Source of the DNA: an uncultured Clostridia bacterium | GTDB lineage: Bacteria; Bacillota; Clostridia; Christensenellales; Borkfalkiaceae | Direction: 5' to 3' | Length of the DNA stretch: 64,000 nucleotides | NCBI GenBank assembly: GCA_947628505.1 | Contig: CANRAD010000010.1 | Location: 1-64,000, forward strand | Part shown: piece by piece, positions 2,143-51,929 of the stretch | Numbering within the stretch: position 1 is the stretch's first letter | How the letters are laid out: every line of letters starts with the position of its first letter | Notes under the pieces: generated by a model | What the model saw: only the letters and a program-made list of their open reading frames with translations | Database searches by the model: none | What the model was told of the DNA's origin: nothing | Program-made: the position numbers and the translations under genes

Positions 2143-3114
2143 TTATTCGAAATCGCCTTTGAAAAACTGCTCGCGCGTTATAACGCTTTCTTTCGCCGGC
2201 TTTATTACGGTGTTTTTGTCCACGAAATATTTTATCTCTTCCCTGTCGTAATAATTTACGAGTTCGAAGCTCACCAATATGACGTAGCTTGCGGGTATGG
2301 TAAGCAGCAGGCCGACGCCGAAAGTCGTCAGAAAAGCCGTTATGTTGACGCTCATTATTATCAGCACGAGCACCACAAAGTTCGAGAACACGTTGAAAGT
2401 CTTCTTGTTTTTTCTCGAAAACGTGTACTTGAAGGAGTTTTGCTGTCCCATCTTGCCGCGTATCAAAGCGGGCAGCCAATCGCAAGTGAACGTCATTTTA
2501 AACGATATGGCAACCACGACTATGAGCATAAAGAAGAACACGCCGATAAGCAGAGGCAACACTTTCATGAACACGAGATAATACACGAACGCGAACATCG
2601 CCGCCACGATTATTATATCGTAGAGCACAGAGAGCGGCACGTAAATGAGGTTGTAAACGGCGGCTTCTCTGAGATTTTTTATGAGCGTTCCCATAAAGGG
2701 TGAATTGGCGCGGAGCGCCATTTTGTCGTTTATGACGGCTGCGGTTGCATAGTTGCCTATCCCGGCGAACCATTTTTCTATAATGTAAACGAGCAGCAGC
2801 AACAATCCGGCGAGCACGAGTTGAACCATTCTCGTCTGCAACAGATATATGAACTGCGTGTAGGCCTTTTCCACTTTATCGGAAATGCCTCTCAGCGCTT
2901 CCACGTCCCCGTCTATGAGTTTGGCGATGAAATCGCGCACGCCGTTCACGAGCGTGTTCAGCTCTTCCGAGGCGATGAGCGAACCGACGAACGGATAAAC
3001 GCACGCGATCGCTATGCCCGAGAACACGAGCATTATGACGAGTCTGTATAAAAGCTGTTTATATGTAACGGAGAAATTGTCCACGAACACGTGGAAAGTG
3101 TGTTTGAATTTCAT
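2143..3114 (-). CDS. Polytopic membrane protein of unknown function
   Basis: A 323-residue protein with about six hydrophobic segments (roughly residues 24-46, 100-120, 160-185, 187-215, 243-270 and 273-293), so an integral membrane protein. A soluble stretch around residues 50-95 and a charged C-terminal tail are visible. I do not recognise the family. It is the last gene of a three-gene operon: its ATG overlaps the stop of the metallophosphoesterase gene by four bases, and GAGAGGAATTT precedes the start. The context (housekeeping nucleotide hygiene) does not reveal a role. Confidence 0.75.
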   Translation of the reverse strand: MKFKHTFHVFVDNFSVTYKQLLYRLVIMLVFSGIAIACVYPFVGSLIASEELNTLVNGVRDFIAKLIDGDVEALRGISDKVEKAYTQFIYLLQTRMVQLVLAGLLLLLVYIIEKWFAGIGNYATAAVINDKMALRANSPFMGTLIKNLREAAVYNLIYVPLSVLYDIIIVAAMFAFVYYLVFMKVLPLLIGVFFFMLIVVVAISFKMTFTCDWLPALIRGKMGQQNSFKYTFSRKNKKTFNVFSNFVVLVLIIMSVNITAFLTTFGVGLLLTIPASYVILVSFELVNYYDREEIKYFVDKNTVIKPAKESVITREQFFKGDFE

Positions 3115-3593
3115 AAATTCCTCTCATCGGGATAAACGATTTTGGCGACGGACTTATTGCCGTTCACAACGAGATAGCAGTAGCTCTTGCGCGAATATCT
3201 CGAAAACGTTCCCGGGTTTATGACGAGAACTCCGCATATTTCGTGCTCAACGGCTCTGTGGGTATGCCCGTAGAGCGCCGCCGAACAGCCGAGTTCTTTC
3301 GCTCGTTCCACAATTTTATCTTCGGTGTATCTGACGGAATATCTGTGTCCGTGGCAAGCGAAGATTTTAACGTTTTCAACGGTCAGAACGAGTTCGTCCT
3401 CGCCGAGATTTTCGGGATCGCAGTTGCCGTTTACAACGTAGGTTTTATCGGGGAACGCCGAACTCAGATAACGCCCGTCCGCGGAGGTGTCGCCGAGATG
3501 GATAATCATATCACATTCCGAGAACACCCCGAAGAGTTCGTCGACGCCCCGTCTGTTTCCGTGGGTGTCCGAAATAACGGCTATCGTCTTCAT
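3111..3593 (-). CDS. YfcE/MJ0936-type metallophosphoesterase
   Basis: A 160-residue calcineurin-like phosphoesterase. The metal-ligand motifs are intact: ISDTHGN (residues 7-13), the HLGDT block, GNCDP and the double-histidine GHTHRA near the C terminus. Family members hydrolyse phosphodiesters, and the natural substrate is generally unknown. It overlaps rdgB by four bases upstream and the membrane protein by four bases downstream. The rdgB-phosphoesterase pairing is common in Firmicutes. No strong ribosome binding site precedes it, consistent with translational coupling. Confidence 0.9.
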   Translation of the reverse strand: MKTIAVISDTHGNRRGVDELFGVFSECDMIIHLGDTSADGRYLSSAFPDKTYVVNGNCDPENLGEDELVLTVENVKIFACHGHRYSVRYTEDKIVERAKELGCSAALYGHTHRAVEHEICGVLVINPGTFSRYSRKSYCYLVVNGNKSVAKIVYPDERNL

Positions 3594-4159
3594 ATTTTGT
3601 TTCTGAGGTCCTGCAAAGCGCGGAAGCGGTGGGAAACGGAGTTTTTCTCCTCGTCGCTCGCCATTCCGAAGCTCTTTTTAAGGTCGTCGGAGAAGAAGAG
3701 CGAATCGTAGCCGAACCCGTTGGAACCTATTTCTTCATAGAGAATTCTTCCGTAAGTTCTTCCCTCGCCGAAATATGTATGACCGTCCGGCATGTAGAGG
3801 CATACGGCGCACTCGAAATGCGCGTGTCTGTCGTATACGTTCTCCATTCTCTTTAAAAGCAATTTTCTGTTTTCGGCCTCGCCCTCGCCGGAGAACCTTG
3901 CCGAATATATGCCGGGCGCGCCGTTAAGACCTTCCACGCACAGTCCGGAATCGTCGGCGAGCGAGGGCATTCCGTACATTTCGGCAATTGCCTTGGCCTT
4001 TATCTGCGCGTTTGCGCGGAAGTTTTTGCCCGTCTCTTCTATTTCGCCGTCGAACCCGAGGTCGTGCATCGAAACGATTTCCACGTCGTTGAAAATCTCT
4101 TTTATCTCGCGGATTTTGTTATTGTTGCCGCTCGCAACGGCTATTCTCTGTAATACCAT
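3590..4159 (-). CDS. rdgB: XTP/dITP diphosphatase (RdgB/HAM1 family)
   Basis: Hydrolyses non-canonical purine triphosphates (dITP, XTP) to monophosphates, keeping them out of DNA and RNA. The 189-residue protein has the family's N-terminal ASGNNNKIREI, the central LADDSGLCVEGLNGAPGIYSARF region (catalytic aspartates), GYDSLF and the C-terminal SHRFRAL. It is first in a three-gene operon. No Shine-Dalgarno sequence precedes the ATG, and the promoter -10 box ends only six bases before it, so the message may begin at or next to the start codon. Confidence 0.94.
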   Translation of the reverse strand: MVLQRIAVASGNNNKIREIKEIFNDVEIVSMHDLGFDGEIEETGKNFRANAQIKAKAIAEMYGMPSLADDSGLCVEGLNGAPGIYSARFSGEGEAENRKLLLKRMENVYDRHAHFECAVCLYMPDGHTYFGEGRTYGRILYEEIGSNGFGYDSLFFSDDLKKSFGMASDEEKNSVSHRFRALQDLRNKI

Positions 4160-4165
4160 AACAAT

Positions 4166-4194
4166 ATTATATAATAAATATTTGAAAATGTAAA
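4166..4194 (-). promoter_or_regulatory. Sigma-A type promoter of rdgB, probably leaderless
   Basis: Minus strand TTTACA, 17-base spacer, TATAAT. The last T of the -10 box is six bases from the rdgB ATG, so transcription should start at about the A of the start codon. Confidence 0.7.
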
Positions 4195-4198
4195 GGGC

Positions 4199-4693
4199 TT
4201 AATCCCATTTTAACGTATGCAGTTGCCCTTTTAAATTAAAGCCGTCGAAACCGAGCTGTCTGAGCCCCTCGTAAACGGCAATGGCCACGGAATTGGAGAG
4301 GTTCAGACTGCGCGTGTCGGCAATCATCGGTATTCTCAGACAGTTTTCTTCGTGCGCTTTCAGGAGTTCTTCCGGCAGTCCCTTCGTTTCCTTGCCGAAC
4401 ACGAGGAAGTCCCCTTTCGAAAACTTCTCGTCGGAATACGTCTTGCGCGCTTTTGTGGAAAAGAAGAAAAAGCGCGAACGGGGGAAGGCCGCAAACAGCT
4501 CCCCGATACCGTCGTAGTAAAAAATCTCCACGTCTTTCCAATAGTCCAGACCGGCGCGTTTGAGCTGTCTGTCGTTGACTTCGAATCCCAGCGGCCGCAC
4601 GAGATGCAGTCTGCACCCGGTCGCCGCGCAGGTCCTCGCGATATTCCCCGTATTCTGAGGTATTTCGGGCTCGACGAGCACAATATCGAACAT
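4199..4693 (-). CDS. trmL: tRNA (cytidine/uridine-34-2'-O)-methyltransferase TrmL (SPOUT)
   Basis: SPOUT-class enzyme that 2'-O-methylates the wobble nucleotide of tRNA-Leu isoacceptors using S-adenosylmethionine. The 164-residue protein has the N-terminal EPEIPQNTGNIARTCAATG motif, FGKETKGLPEEL in the middle and the C-terminal knot motif RSLNLSNSVAIAVYEGLRQ. The start at 4693 is preferred: AAGGAG is eight bases from it but only two from the alternative ATG at 4699. The gene is divergent from the phosphate transporter and appears monocistronic. Confidence 0.93.
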   Translation of the reverse strand: MFDIVLVEPEIPQNTGNIARTCAATGCRLHLVRPLGFEVNDRQLKRAGLDYWKDVEIFYYDGIGELFAAFPRSRFFFFSTKARKTYSDEKFSKGDFLVFGKETKGLPEELLKAHEENCLRIPMIADTRSLNLSNSVAIAVYEGLRQLGFDGFNLKGQLHTLKWD

Positions 4694-46888: not shown

Positions 46889-46896
46889 GATTGGAT

Positions 46897-47625
46897 ATGG
46901 AGATAAACGTAGACGAAAACGTGCGCTTTCAGGTGCTCAACAGGAGAATAAGAGAGACTTCCGAAAAGGAGATAACGGTCAACGGAGTTATAGGCCAGCG
47001 GTATATCGCGGCCGGCCTCGGCGGCAAAAAAATAACTCTGAACGGCACTCCTGGCAACGCTCTCGGAGCGTATCTGAACGGTTGCGACGTGTACATAAAC
47101 GGCAACGCGCAGGACGCCACCGGCGACACCATGAACGACGGCAGAATAATAATATACGGCAATGCCGGCGACGCCACAGGATACGCCATGCGCGGCGGAA
47201 GGATATACGTCCGCGGCAACACGGGCTATCGTTGCGGTATTCACATGAAGGCGTATGAGAGCTTTAAACCTATAATAGTAATAGGCGGGAGAGCGGGATC
47301 GTTTCTCGGCGAATATCAGGCCGGCGGCGTCATCGTAGTGCTCGGGAAAAACGCCGACGGTTTGCCCGTCGTCCACAATTTCTGCGGTACGGGCATGCAT
47401 GGCGGAGTTATGTATTTGAGATGCGAAAAACTCCCCCACAGATTGCCCAAACAGGTTCGCGCAGAAAAGGTAAAGGGCTCCGATATACCCGAACTTGCGG
47501 AAATAATCGGCGATTACTGTCGCTACTTTACCGAATACGACAAGGAAGAACTGCTCTCTTCTGTATTTTACAAACTTACGCCAGACAGAGAAAACCCTTA
47601 CAAAAGAATGTATACCGACAACTGA
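46897..47625 (+). CDS. Glutamate synthase GXGXG-domain subunit (GltB3/GlxC-like)
   Basis: A 242-residue right-handed beta-helix protein with repeated G-x-x-G-x-x-x-G turns: VNGVIGQRYIAAGLGG, LNGTPGNALGAYLNG, INGNAQDATGDTMNDG, IYGNAGDATGYAMRGG and VRGNTGYRCGIHM. In ordinary GltB this is the structural C-terminal domain that connects the glutaminase and FMN sites; here it is a separate gene, completing a split synthase. ATG 46897 is preferred over TTG 46891. Last gene of the operon, with a strong terminator three bases later. Confidence 0.9.
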   Translation: MEINVDENVRFQVLNRRIRETSEKEITVNGVIGQRYIAAGLGGKKITLNGTPGNALGAYLNGCDVYINGNAQDATGDTMNDGRIIIYGNAGDATGYAMRGGRIYVRGNTGYRCGIHMKAYESFKPIIVIGGRAGSFLGEYQAGGVIVVLGKNADGLPVVHNFCGTGMHGGVMYLRCEKLPHRLPKQVRAEKVKGSDIPELAEIIGDYCRYFTEYDKEELLSSVFYKLTPDRENPYKRMYTDN

Positions 47626-47738: not shown

Positions 47739-47816
47739 ACAAGGGGCGCCCCTTGTATGCGTTTTAAAAAACGCATACAAAAACTCCTTGATTGGTCTGA
47801 GACTAAAAACAAGGAG
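47739..47816 (+). promoter_or_regulatory. Three consecutive hairpins; the last hides the ribosome binding site
   Basis: I: perfect palindrome ACAAGGGGCGCCCCTTGT (47739-47756). II: TATGCGTTTT/AAAACGCATA (47756-47777). III: CTCCTTG (47784-47790) with CAAGGAG (47810-47816), which covers the AAGGAGG of the next gene. The CCCCTTG of hairpin I could also pair with CAAGG of the ribosome binding site, so alternative folds are possible. Confidence 0.7.
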
Positions 47817-47823
47817 GTTAATC

Positions 47824-48315
47824 GTGAAAAAGTATCTCAACAAAATTCTGTACGGCGTGTCGGCGCTTCTCGGAGTAATAGCTATAATTATGCTCGCGGC
47901 TCCCGCAATCGTTCCCAAAGGCGAGTATGCCGATTATGTCGGCGGTTCTTTCAGCGGCGCCAACGTGGCTTTCGGCAATGACAATTATTTTGCATTTTCG
48001 TTCGGCTATTTTCTTCCCTATTTGCTTGTGGCGATAGGCGTAGCGTTTGTCATAGTCGCCGTTTTTGGCAAGCTCGGAAAGATAGCTCCCATAGTTGCAG
48101 CCGTCTGCTTCGTTGTTGCGGGAATTATGTTCTTCTTGCCCATAGACCTTATGGCCGGCAAAGACATTAACGCCGATGAACTTGCGGAATTCAAAAATTA
48201 TGTTAAAGAAATATGCACTGTCGGCGCCGGCGCGATAATGGCGGGAATATTCTCGCTCGTTGCGGCCGTTCTCTCGGTTGTAACGGCGTTTGTCGTAAAA
48301 ACCGAAAACAACTGA
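47824..48315 (+). CDS. Small membrane protein with four helices, function unknown
   Basis: A 163-residue protein with four hydrophobic segments (about residues 5-28, 55-78, 83-103 and 133-157). The N terminus KKYLNKILYGVSALLGVIAI could pass as an anchor or a signal. The start is GTG 47824, seven bases after AAGGAGG. I do not recognise the family. Its interest lies in the leader: three stacked palindromes, the third sequestering this ribosome binding site. It stands between the glutamate synthase operon and the DpnI locus. Confidence 0.75.
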   Translation: MKKYLNKILYGVSALLGVIAIIMLAAPAIVPKGEYADYVGGSFSGANVAFGNDNYFAFSFGYFLPYLLVAIGVAFVIVAVFGKLGKIAPIVAAVCFVVAGIMFFLPIDLMAGKDINADELAEFKNYVKEICTVGAGAIMAGIFSLVAAVLSVVTAFVVKTENN

Positions 48316-48637: not shown

Positions 48638-48666
48638 TTGCTTTTATTCGAGATTTGGAATATAAT
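48638..48666 (+). promoter_or_regulatory. Promoter of the methylase-dpnCD locus
   Basis: TTGCTT, 17-base spacer, TATAAT, 26 bases before the methylase ATG. Confidence 0.55.
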
Positions 48667-48691: not shown

Positions 48692-49657
48692 ATGTTGAGT
48701 TATATATCGGCGAAAGAAGCTGCCGAGCGGTGGAATATTTCCAGGCGACGCGTGGCGATTTTATGTTCCGAGAACAGAATAGACGGGGCTATGATGGTCG
48801 GCAATATGTGGATTATACCGAGCAATGCCGAAAAACCCATAGATAAGAGAACCTTGCGCTATGAAAATGAGCGCAAATTCACTTTAAAGCCGTTTGTTAA
48901 ATGGGTTGGCGGCAAGGGACAACTTATCGGCGAACTTGAAAAGATGCTGCCCTCAAACGGGGATAAAGTTCTTACAAAGTATTGTGAACCTATGGTTGGC
49001 GGCGGCGCACTCCTTTTCAACGTGCTGTCGAAATATGATTTTGCCGAACTTTATATCGGCGATATCAACCCCGAACTTATCAATGCCTACAACGTGATTA
49101 AAAAGAATGTTGAGGAATTGATTTCGCGCTTACAAGAGATGCAAATGGTCTTTTTGCCTATGGACGAGAACGGCAGAAAGTTTTATTACTATTCCGTCCG
49201 TGATAAATTCAATTCCGTAGTATTGGCAGCCGAAACAGCGGTCGAAAAGGCGGCTTACTTTATCTTTCTCAATAAGACTTGTTTCAACGGACTGTATCGT
49301 GTAAACCGCAAAGGACAATTTAACGTGCCCATGGGAGCATACAAAAATCCGACGATTTGCGACAAGGAAAACTTGCTCAATATAAGCAAGGCCTTGCAAA
49401 ACGTAACCATCGTCTGCGGCGATTATTCTTTGTCGAAGGAGTTTATCGATAAAAATACTTTTGTGTATATCGATCCGCCTTATCGTCCCATTTCCGAAAC
49501 GTCCGGCTTCACTTCATACAATGCGGACGTCTTTGACGACGACGAACAAATAAGGCTCGCACGTTTTATCGATGAAATAAATAAATCCGGCGCGAAGATA
49601 GTGTTGAGAAAGAAAAACAAGGAGTTAAAGGTATATGGATTTACAAATGTATTTTAA
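48692..49657 (+). pseudogene. C-terminally truncated DNA adenine methylase (DpnM/Dam class) with N-terminal HTH
   Basis: The 321-residue frame starts with a ~50-residue helix-turn-helix head (ISAKEAAERWNISRRRVAILC), then a D12-class adenine methylase: motif X KWVGGKGQL (70-78), motif I EPMVGGGALLF (99-109), FNGLYRVNRKGQFNVP and the catalytic IDPPYRPISETSGFTSY (260-276). Homology to M.DpnII-type enzymes stops near residue 305 (GAKIVL); the last 16 residues are unrelated and overlap dpnC. Motifs V-VIII, about 50 residues, are missing, so it is probably inactive. In M.DpnII relatives the target is GATC. Confidence 0.85.
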
Positions 49658-50405
49658 AGGAATAGATAATTATCATAGCGGAGCACAACAAGCGCGTGTA
49701 TTTACTGAAACTTGGGTTGCAAGAAATCTTTATTGCCCGCGTTGCGGAAATGAAAATATCGTTCATTTTAAAAATAATCGTCCGGTGGCAGATTTCTATT
49801 GCGAGAAATGTAAAAACGAATATGAGTTAAAAAGCAAAAGCGGTGGATTGGGTGAAAAAGTTAATGACGGCGCTTACGATACTATGATAGCCCGTATAAC
49901 AGGCAATCAAAATCCGGATTTTTTATTTATGGGCTATCAAAAACAGTCTTTAACGGTAAAAGACCTCGTTATAGTGCCGAAGCACTTCTTTATCCCGTCA
50001 ATGATTGAAAAACGGAGGCCGCTTTCTGCAACGGCACGCAGAGCGGGCTGGACAGGTTGTAATATTTTAATAAACACAATCCCCAAACAGGGTTTTATAA
50101 AAATTATTGAAGACGGGCGTATTGTCGAAAAAGAAAAAGTGTTATTGCAAATGTCCCGTTGTTCGAAATTGGAGATTTTGAATGTTGAAGCGCGCGGTTG
50201 GTTATTGGATGTACTTGAATGTGTTAATTTGATTCCCATGCAAGAATTTTCGCTCGACGACGTGTATCGGTTTGAAGCGGTACTTGCGGCGAAACATCCG
50301 CAAAATCACAACGTAAAACCGAAAATTCGTCAACAGTTACAATATTTGCGCGACAAGGGATTTTTGGAATTTACGCAAAGAGGAAAATATAGAAAAATAT
50401 ATTGA
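49635..50405 (+). CDS. dpnC: DpnI-like methyl-directed restriction endonuclease
   Basis: Type IIM nuclease that cuts GATC only when the adenine is methylated. The 256-residue protein aligns along its length with my memory of DpnI: a zinc site (C34, C37, C56, C59), the PD-(D/E)xK catalytic residues D53, E64 and K66 in PVADFYCEKCKNEYELKSK, NDGAYDTMIARI, ATARRAGWTGCNI and a C-terminal winged helix (KIRQQLQYLRDKGFLEFTQRGKYRK) that reads methylated sites. AAGGAG is ten bases before the ATG, inside the end of the truncated methylase frame. It can exist only where GATC is not adenine-methylated. Confidence 0.93.
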   Translation: MDLQMYFKGIDNYHSGAQQARVFTETWVARNLYCPRCGNENIVHFKNNRPVADFYCEKCKNEYELKSKSGGLGEKVNDGAYDTMIARITGNQNPDFLFMGYQKQSLTVKDLVIVPKHFFIPSMIEKRRPLSATARRAGWTGCNILINTIPKQGFIKIIEDGRIVEKEKVLLQMSRCSKLEILNVEARGWLLDVLECVNLIPMQEFSLDDVYRFEAVLAAKHPQNHNVKPKIRQQLQYLRDKGFLEFTQRGKYRKIY

Positions 50406-50413
50406 GGATAAAT

Positions 50414-50608
50414 ATGAAAAAATTTATTATTGCGATTGAAGAAACGGTTTCACAAACATTTGACGTGTTGACGGAAAACGTTGATGAGGCTTTAATGATA
50501 GCTCAGAGCAAATATCGAAAATGCGAGTTTGTTTTAGAGCCGGGCGAATTGATATGCAAGCAAATTGCGTCTGTTGGAGACAATCCAACCGAATGGACGG
50601 AATTTTGA
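50414..50608 (+). CDS. dpnD: DpnD/PcfM-family small protein
   Basis: A 64-residue protein (KKFIIAIEETVSQTFDVLTEN...), opening like DpnD/PcfM proteins, small beta-alpha proteins that follow dpnC in the pneumococcal DpnI cassette; their role is unknown. GAGGATAAAT lies ahead of the ATG 50414, directly after the dpnC stop. Its presence completes a dpnC-dpnD pair and helps date the replacement as import of a whole cassette. Confidence 0.8.
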   Translation: MKKFIIAIEETVSQTFDVLTENVDEALMIAQSKYRKCEFVLEPGELICKQIASVGDNPTEWTEF

Positions 50609-50612
50609 TTGA

Positions 50613-50933
50613 ATTTTGTATCACGGCGATTTGTCTCGTTTGCCGATGAAAGAATTTCTGCTTGAAATAGGCAAAGTCGCCGAGGAATGTTATCGCGTGC
50701 TTAAAAAGGATAAATTTTGCGCCGTACTTATGGGCGATACACGGCAAAAAGGCATGGTGAAACCTCTCGCTTTTGAGGTTATGCGCGTATTCGGGAATGT
50801 CGGTTTCAAGACAAAAGAGATAATTATCAAGGAACAGCACAACTGCAAGGCAACGGGCTATTGGAAAACAAACAGCATAAAATTCAATTTTCTGTTGCTT
50901 GCGCATGAATATCTGTTCGTGTTTAAAAAATAG
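50613..50933 (+). pseudogene. C-terminal fragment of a second DNA methyltransferase
   Basis: About 106 residues with no proper start: it opens directly after a stop at 50610-50612, its first usable codon is a TTG, and there is no ribosome binding site. HGDLSRLPMKEFLLEIGKVA, YRVLKKDKFCAVLMGDTRQ and KEQHNCKATGYWKTNS ... LLAHEYLFVFKK are typical of the C-terminal half of N4/N6 DNA methylases encoded beside restriction genes. The SAM-binding and (D/S)PPY catalytic motifs are absent, so it is inactive. Confidence 0.78.
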
Positions 50934-51092: not shown

Positions 51093-51929
51093 ATGAAATT
51101 CTATAAAATGCACGGTTGCGGCAACGACTACATATATTTCGACTGCATGAAAGCCGAGATAAAAGAACCCGAAAAACTTGCCGTGCGCCTTTCCGACAGA
51201 CACTTTTCGATAGGCGGCGACGGAATAATTCTTCTTTGTCCTTCAAAAATCGCCGATTGCAGAATGAGAATGTTCAACGCCGACGGCTCGGAGGGCAGAA
51301 TGTGCGGCAACGGAGTGCGTTGCATAGGCAAACTCGCACGCGACCTCGGCTATGCGAAAGGCGACAAATGCTCGGTGGAAACGCTGTCGGGGATAAAATA
51401 TCTCGATTTGTTCTTCGATGACTCCGGAAAGGTTTCCGCGGCGAAAGTGGATATGGGCGTCCCCGAATTGCGCGGCGAAAAAATTCCCTCCTCGTTCACA
51501 GGCGAAAAAATCGTCGGCGCGCCGCTCGAAGTCGGCGGAAAAGTTTACGCCGTAACTCTCGTCTCCATGGGCAATCCGCATTGCGTTGTTTTCGTGGACG
51601 ATCCCGATGATATCGATATCGGAAAAATCGGTCCGCAGTTCGAAAATCACCCGTCGTTCCCCGAACGTGTCAACACCGAATTTATAAGCGTTTCCGGCGA
51701 AAACCGCTTGAAGATGCGCGTTTGGGAGAGGGGAAGCGGCGAAACTCTCGCTTGCGGCACGGGCGCATGCGCGGCGGCCGTGGCCGCCGTTTTGAACGGT
51801 TACTGCAAAATCGGCGAGGATATAACTGTGTCGCTCAAAGGCGGAGATCTCGTTATAACTTACAAGGACGACCGCGTATACATGTACGGCGGAGCCACGC
51901 TTGCGTTCACGGGTGAAACAGAGATATAA
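51093..51929 (+). CDS. dapF: Diaminopimelate epimerase
   Basis: Interconverts LL- and meso-diaminopimelate for peptidoglycan and lysine. The 278-residue enzyme has the two catalytic cysteine loops: GRMCGNGVRCIGKLA (about residue 72) and LACGTGACAAAVA (about residue 220), plus the N-terminal KMHGCGNDYIY and FNADGSEG. GGAGG precedes the ATG. It has its own promoter. The partner dapL lies two genes downstream, with pyrG between them. Confidence 0.95.
   Translation: MKFYKMHGCGNDYIYFDCMKAEIKEPEKLAVRLSDRHFSIGGDGIILLCPSKIADCRMRMFNADGSEGRMCGNGVRCIGKLARDLGYAKGDKCSVETLSGIKYLDLFFDDSGKVSAAKVDMGVPELRGEKIPSSFTGEKIVGAPLEVGGKVYAVTLVSMGNPHCVVFVDDPDDIDIGKIGPQFENHPSFPERVNTEFISVSGENRLKMRVWERGSGETLACGTGACAAAVAAVLNGYCKIGEDITVSLKGGDLVITYKDDRVYMYGGATLAFTGETEI

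Follow-up and report, generated by a model that had tools for sequence, protein, structure and literature searches.

A predicted DpnI cassette in the place of the core of a DpnII-type locus in an uncultured Clostridia bacterium

How does the gene of a nuclease that should cut GATC only when it is methylated come to lie between the pieces of two methylase genes? This question is raised by positions 48692-50933 of the window, i.e. of the whole 64,000-nucleotide stretch analysed here, which belongs to the draft genome of a gut-type bacterium, of 98.7% completeness and in 40 contigs (G000). An initial annotation had described this region as a DpnI cassette embedded between two broken methyltransferase genes, the fossil of a DpnII-to-DpnI switch, and the open reading frames indeed lie where it had put them. 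The locus and its neighbours comprise the following features:

46891..47625, forward strand: gene of a GXGXG protein, left neighbour of the presumed insertion; it adjoins dapF in eight same-genus genomes
48638..48666, forward strand: conserved promoter-like element, with a pattern shared with related loci; putative promoter function
48692..48886, forward strand: HTH head, residues 1-65 of the truncated methylase; weak HTH_17 match, conserved in relatives
48692..49606, forward strand: dpnM', residues 1-305 of an HTH-DpnM adenine methylase, of which the last ~50 residues are lost
48692-49657, forward strand: complete P0001 frame (321 aa), i.e. dpnM' plus a non-homologous end
49607..49657, forward strand: non-homologous end of the dpnM' frame, running through the dpnC leader and into dpnC
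49635..50405, forward strand: dpnC, predicted DpnI-type endonuclease (PF06044, PF17726, 4esj)
50414..50608, forward strand: dpnD, small DpnD/PcfM-like protein (PF14207)
50625..50933, forward strand (open frame 50616-50933): methylase-2 tail, residues ~147-248, no evident start
51093..51929, forward strand: right neighbour of the presumed insertion, taken to be dapF by its sequence

By its domains and key residues, dpnC encodes a predicted DpnI-type endonuclease for methylated GATC. Its product matches the PD-(D/E)XK catalytic domain (PF06044, 251 bits) and the C-terminal winged-helix domain (PF17726, 113 bits), and aligns with DpnI (4esj) across residues 2-255 (1.6e-78). PMC4117772 names D53, E64, L65, L129, R135 and W138 as active-site or methyl-binding residues of DpnI; D53, E64, L65 and the counterparts of the other three are invariant in seven aligned DpnC proteins, including that of the window. 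The product of dpnD reaches 28.3 bits with PF14207, against a cut-off of 25. Both genes thus look intact, as had been proposed. The dpnC leader carries AAGGAG at 49619-49624, and the dpnM' frame overlaps the dpnC start by 23 nt. A phage-borne cassette was considered and rejected, as a scan of viral contigs gave no full DpnC and only five partial C-terminal matches. Viral contigs L312-L316 match the winged-helix C-terminal part of DpnI only.

The P0001 frame scores 200 bits with the D12 methylase family (PF02086) and 267 bits with the Dam family (TIGR00571), and its best match among solved structures is DpnM (2dpm, 3e-47), in an alignment that ends at position 243 of 284. All three matches fall short of the end of the model or protein. 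Intact HTH-bearing relatives are mostly ~355 aa long, and their homology to P0001 ends at residue 305-309, about position 49606. The comparison therefore bears out the earlier description of a DpnM-like methylase that keeps three motifs, which we take to be X, I and IV, and loses its homology near residue 305. Five conserved positions past the break (S, R, R, E and N) are gone, and a full-length DpnM-type methylase is not present at this locus.

The right flank corresponds to the last ~103 residues of a methylase of ~248 aa, here called methylase 2, and matches only part of PF01555. In intact copies of this protein, two motifs that we take to be the SAM-type motif and the HPPY motif both lie before residue 145; the tail in the window lacks them because they sit in the missing half. 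A methylase fragment without SAM and catalytic motifs had been claimed, and this part stands, but the breakpoint does not lie at 50610, as homology starts near 50625. The DpnA motif order is the reverse of that of methylase 2. An identification of the second methylase as DpnA was rejected, since its SAM-type motif precedes HPPY, unlike the DpnA layout. Taking both flanks together, we infer that neither methylase is active.

If these flanks are remnants, what did the locus look like before? The initial annotation had proposed a search for the uninterrupted locus with an alignment of the breakpoints, and HTH-DpnM/nuclease/methylase-2 loci do exist in the same taxonomic order. HTH-DpnM was matched in 129 of 297 genomes of this order, many of which share the HTH head only, and the tail protein in 48. 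Of the 47 stretches compared, seven surround dpnC, and the other 40 surround DpnM, methylase 2 or fragments of these. The usual arrangement is HTH-DpnM (~355 residues, ~300 without the HTH head), followed by a nuclease and then by methylase 2 (~248 residues). Among 48 chosen middle frames, 22 form one group, whose two tested members are DpnII (PF04556, 361 bits), seven form a second group with one tested, PDDEXK_11-like member (28 bits), and 19 are others; the slot after DpnM seems to accept unrelated nucleases. A protein of 179-197 residues that is not DpnII occupies this slot in L114, L115, L117, L123, L134, L135 and L136. A methylase-nuclease fusion may exist in L132 (G038, 2531-4297), where DpnM and DpnII seem to be encoded by a single open frame of 588 residues.

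In both arms, the window shares 85-90% identity with the nearest uninterrupted loci (G148, G019 and G248). The two closest of these carry DpnII as the nuclease between their arms. Compared with G148, the window has lost ~1.46 kb, comprising the end of dpnM, DpnII and the front of methylase 2, and has ~1.02 kb of dpnC-dpnD instead. Judged from this comparison, the predicted DpnI cassette is in the place of these three parts. We therefore favour, with fair confidence, the reading that a DpnII-type locus was converted to DpnI by replacement of its middle, and that DpnI thereby captured the DpnII promoter and a putative HTH autoregulator. No DpnII (PF04556) match was found in the genome of the window. 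Across the 297 genomes of the order, DpnI scores above the cut-off in eight (in 15 at E 0.001) and DpnII occurs in 27; none combines DpnI above the cut-off with DpnII, which, with 0.7 such genomes expected, is not significant alone. In L130 (G091), a DpnM fragment at 3052-3394 directly precedes a methylase-2 fragment and no DpnI was found there, possibly a deletion scar of the same locus type.

The surroundings of the locus suggest an insertion. Of 29 dapF stretches from the same genus, eight have the GXGXG gene 46-558 bp from dapF, compared to 3468 bp in the window, while the remaining 21 do not show the GXGXG gene; dpnM, dpnC and the tail are absent from all 29. In the window, a 175-residue membrane-like frame without Pfam match (47788-48315) separates the GXGXG gene from the DpnI locus, and locus and frame together look like an insertion beside dapF. 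That the chimera is an error of the draft assembly of 40 contigs is extremely improbable: the same order and the same left junction recur in other assemblies (G193, contig CANRHI010000015.1). This recurrence also places the locus order beyond chance.

How widespread is this arrangement? A scan of species genomes with the aligned DpnC proteins confirmed at least 521 relatives, of which the best 80 were analysed with profiles built from the uninterrupted loci. Remnants of a DpnII locus accompany dpnC in 23 of these best 80 (of at least 521): 17 have dpnM, 13 methylase 2 and one DpnII. Within the best 80, all dpnM remnants lie upstream and all others downstream of dpnC, always on its strand. Methylase-2 matches weaker than 1e-9 had been dropped beforehand (L169, L171, L173 and L217, apparently unrelated methylases), and two of these (L169, L173) sit upstream of dpnC. 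Among the counted matches, those to methylase 2 are weak in L142, L193 and L210, and four of the 17 dpnM remnants (L143, L146, L185, L186) consist of the HTH head only, which is common elsewhere. A chance neighbourhood was ruled out by the lack of any dpnM or methylase-2 match in 96 kb of control dapF loci. No remnant was detected in 57 of the best 80 dpnC loci (of at least 521), so DpnI can do without the arrangement. Of the eight genomes with DpnI in the order, four have remnants (G000, G193, G157 and G072), with a presumed link in G157, where the HTH head and dpnC are on different contigs. Remnant-bearing loci occur in Bacillota, Bacteroidota, Spirochaetota, Zixibacteria, Planctomycetes and a Moraniibacteriota bin, with the reservation that bins may be impure.

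Among the 17 dpnM remnants in the best 80 (of at least 521), not one keeps the last methylase motif or the profile end. Four end at positions 59-62, three at 110-132 and eight at 302-314 of 356; the longest, in L191 and L193, end at 345 and 344. The RGKxxE-type end, a loose motif matched by 58 of 67 intact DpnM rows, is absent from L191 and L193 in all three frames. In L191, methylase 2 is nearly complete and dpnC itself is split across two frames.

The position of the break is shared in detail. The codon of residue 305 and the dpnC start are 28 nt apart in the window, L029, L138 and L164, and 31 nt apart in L031, L145 and L154; in all seven, the dpnM' frame extends past the dpnC start codon. 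A spacer core is common to the window and L029/L138, and the dpnC proteins of the window, L029, L138 and L140 form the clade marked by a star in the dpnC tree, while the other loci with the same junction are scattered in it, mostly without support. A single origin of this dpnM-dpnC junction is likely from these sequences. Four Bacteroidales loci also break at 302-305, with different spacers and within one dpnC clade; their junction may have arisen independently. The breakpoint lies within a few bases of a GATC in the codons for SNSDP in 22 of 31 matched dpnM genes (L098-L136). One idea is that DpnI cut at this GATC and caused the shared breakpoint; Asp codon use alone could explain the GATC.

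These observations bear on the possibility of a recent neutral switch in situ in this species, with both flanks as fossils and the left one too young to have decayed. The dN/dS of 0.07 between dpnM' of the window and its intact relatives would also be expected from a very recent event, and the tail differs from that of G148 at only nine of 102 residues. However, six other loci have the same 28/31-nt junction, synonymous sites of dpnC are saturated between the window and L029, and the locus is missing at the same site in eight same-genus genomes. We consider such a recent switch quite improbable; the junction is probably old, and the switch not local to this species. Thus, of the earlier proposal that the old system was overwritten from inside, the overwriting of a DpnII-type locus is supported by the uninterrupted relatives, with the amendment that the switch was probably not local, given the left junction in other genera and the insertion beside dapF.

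The arms and the core of the locus tell different histories. The dpnM' of the window groups with G148, G019 and G248 (support 99/97 for protein, 100/99 for DNA), and the AU test rejects placing it in one clade with L029 and L138 (0.005 and 0.016), whereas dpnC groups with these two. The tail is nearest to G148 (93 of 102 residues), in a weak tree with an AU value of 0.0498 against grouping with L138. A single clade of truncated dpnM was likewise rejected by AU for the tested rows, which were named after the first tree had been seen. In pairs of loci that share a junction, dS is discordant between dpnM' and dpnC: 0.08 versus 0.62 for L029/L138, 0.35 versus 0.02 for L205/L206, 0.82 versus 0.17 for L197/L210, and 0.69 (139 codons of dpnM') versus saturated for L031/L164. 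Sequence identity is patchy along paired loci. Because the dpnM' and dpnC trees disagree and dS is discordant, the simplest reading is that DpnI and DpnII cores exchange between strains by homologous recombination through the methylase arms.

Which parts of the old locus might still serve the new nuclease? Upstream of dpnM', a promoter is predicted with TTGCTT (-35, 48638-48643), a 17-bp spacer and TATAAT (-10, 48661-48666). The spacer contains the repeat TTCGAGATTTGGAA (TTC-N8-GAA, 48647-48660), a putative operator with arms of only 3 bp. This pattern recurs in 20 of 25 HTH-bearing loci without dpnC (missing from L117, L118, L122, L124 and L126) and in 10 of 12 HTH-bearing dpnC loci (missing, by the strict pattern, from L143 and L185), where G157 was counted by its HTH-head contig. 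It was also matched without an HTH frame in L159, ~120 bp before dpnC, and once in L034. The promoter core TTCGNGATTTNGAATATA has one exact match in the genome, and seven further matches at two mismatches, compared to one match in the control.

The initial annotation had also given the methylase an HTH head, which agrees with an HTH_17 match that is weak (0.0011, below the cut-off) and with conservation in relatives. The head alone is kept in five loci, L030 and four of the best 80. In L030 (G072, 806-1285, reverse-complemented), a 77% identical HTH head is fused in frame to DpnD before dpnC, and L185 (5606-5998) shows the same fusion with the methylase body gone, as in G072. According to PMC3874152, methylases with an N-terminal HTH repress their own gene through an operator over the promoter. 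The suggestion that the HTH head could have autoregulated the old locus is strengthened by the conserved promoter with its short repeat; we infer that the head now has such a role in front of dpnC.

The state of the two methylase halves differs. All 37 strongly conserved body positions of DpnM are kept in the window, L029, L138, L164, L154, L197, L205 and L210; L031 keeps all 18 readable ones and L206 36 of 37. Intact DpnM rows, among which those from viral contigs served as references only, keep all 37 in 40 of 67 cases, with a mean of 0.84 lost. Private changes in dpnM' of the window are 28 synonymous and nine nonsynonymous, a ratio that does not differ from intact sisters (p 0.20). In the tail, they are nine and ten; this differs from dpnM' (Fisher p 0.043), while the difference from the tail's sisters is not significant (p 0.07). 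G193/L029 has stops in the tail and an open dpnM'. The left half, with its promoter, HTH head and conserved residues kept, is not visibly decaying, unlike the right half, which appears to erode. The label of a fossil consequently suits the right fragment better than the left one.

This asymmetry would fit a second possibility, to which we give tentative weight: the truncated HTH-DpnM could be a retained dead methylase that still binds GATC or SAM and represses or tunes dpnC, rather than an HTH with a passenger. In favour of this, the window, L029, L138, L164, L154, L197 and L205 have lost none of the 37 conserved body positions, as is the case for 40 of 67 intact rows, the tail rather than dpnM' carries stops in G193 and relatively more nonsynonymous changes in the window, and L029/L138, both broken at the same junction, differ by 15 synonymous and four nonsynonymous changes (omega 0.07). 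However, recombination with intact alleles seems to occur in the arms and could maintain dpnM' in good order without a function of its own, and such refreshment explains the good state of the body as well as selection does. Moreover, dpnM' is damaged in places (a stop between its two pieces in L210, loss of the GGK lysine in L206, S to F after DPPY in L138), five loci have the HTH head only, and 57 of the best 80 dpnC loci (of at least 521) show no detected remnant. A dead methylase that represses the nuclease which replaced its partner, on a platform of promoter, HTH and half methylase rechargeable with either of two opposite nucleases by homologous exchange, is a speculative proposal; if true, it would mean that a methylase turned from antitoxin into regulator.

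The genome of the window has further D12 methylases. A 651-aa two-domain protein on contig C8 reaches 146 bits with TIGR00571 (cut-off 115) and matches T4 Dam (7e-39). At the positions of T4 Dam M114 and R130, which we take to be GATC contacts, it carries Q490 and N506, counted in the alignment. If this protein methylates GATC, an active DpnI would be lethal here. The D12 methylase of contig C16 showed no match to the Dam family. On contig C8 (L036, 3869-10097), the two-domain D12 methylase is accompanied by two other methylases and a DndB-like protein, and the second D12 methylase, on C16, also has a DndB-like neighbour.

In the favoured conversion of a DpnII-type locus, dpnM lost its end and methylase 2 its front, the nuclease gene between them disappeared and dpnC-dpnD came in, as the comparison with relatives shows. 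Since DpnI should kill cells with methylated GATC, such a swap would be survivable only if the GATC methylase dies too; every dpnM remnant found beside dpnC (in the best 80 of at least 521) lacks its end. Transcription of dpnC would then probably start at the old DpnII promoter, with autorepression through the HTH part of dpnM', and its translation may be coupled to that of dpnM'. The broken methylase halves may serve as homology arms for the exchange of DpnI and DpnII cores between strains. The promoter, the HTH head, dpnC and dpnD would be the parts working today, and the methylase-2 tail would be debris. This would offer a concrete genetic route from "methylate GATC, cut unmethylated" to "cut methylated", on which no intermediate with both GATC methylation and DpnI activity should survive. 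Because the arrangement recurs across phyla, none of the 17 dpnM remnants (best 80 of at least 521) is a complete DpnM, and promoter and HTH head have been retained, both the regulation and the sequence of events can be put to the test.

The open-access literature searched yielded no account of a gutted DpnII locus that houses a DpnI cassette, but several known systems resemble parts of it. As in the SsoII/Ecl18kI type, the methylase has a predicted N-terminal HTH and a candidate operator overlaps its putative promoter. SsoII/Ecl18kI-type methylases are 5mC methylases; unlike in that type, autorepression by HTH-DpnM is suggested by the conserved promoter element only. Pneumococcal DpnI and DpnII exchange as whole cassettes, whereas the exchange points in the window lie inside the methylase genes, and half genes remain as arms. 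According to PMC3573125, the pneumococcal enzymes are complementary systems, of which a strain has either one. A precedent for the arrangement in the window is found in Neisseria, where, according to PMC4269198 and PMC516771, the insertion of drg leaves dam truncated, the two genes exclude each other, and three gonococcal genomes have drg followed by the gene of a DpnIIB-like enzyme. Both cases share a DpnI-type nuclease gene within a GATC methylase gene that is truncated by it. They differ in that the Neisseria drg hits dam beside leuS, whereas in the window a DpnII-type locus appears gutted, its promoter and HTH head are kept, and similar remnants occur across phyla.
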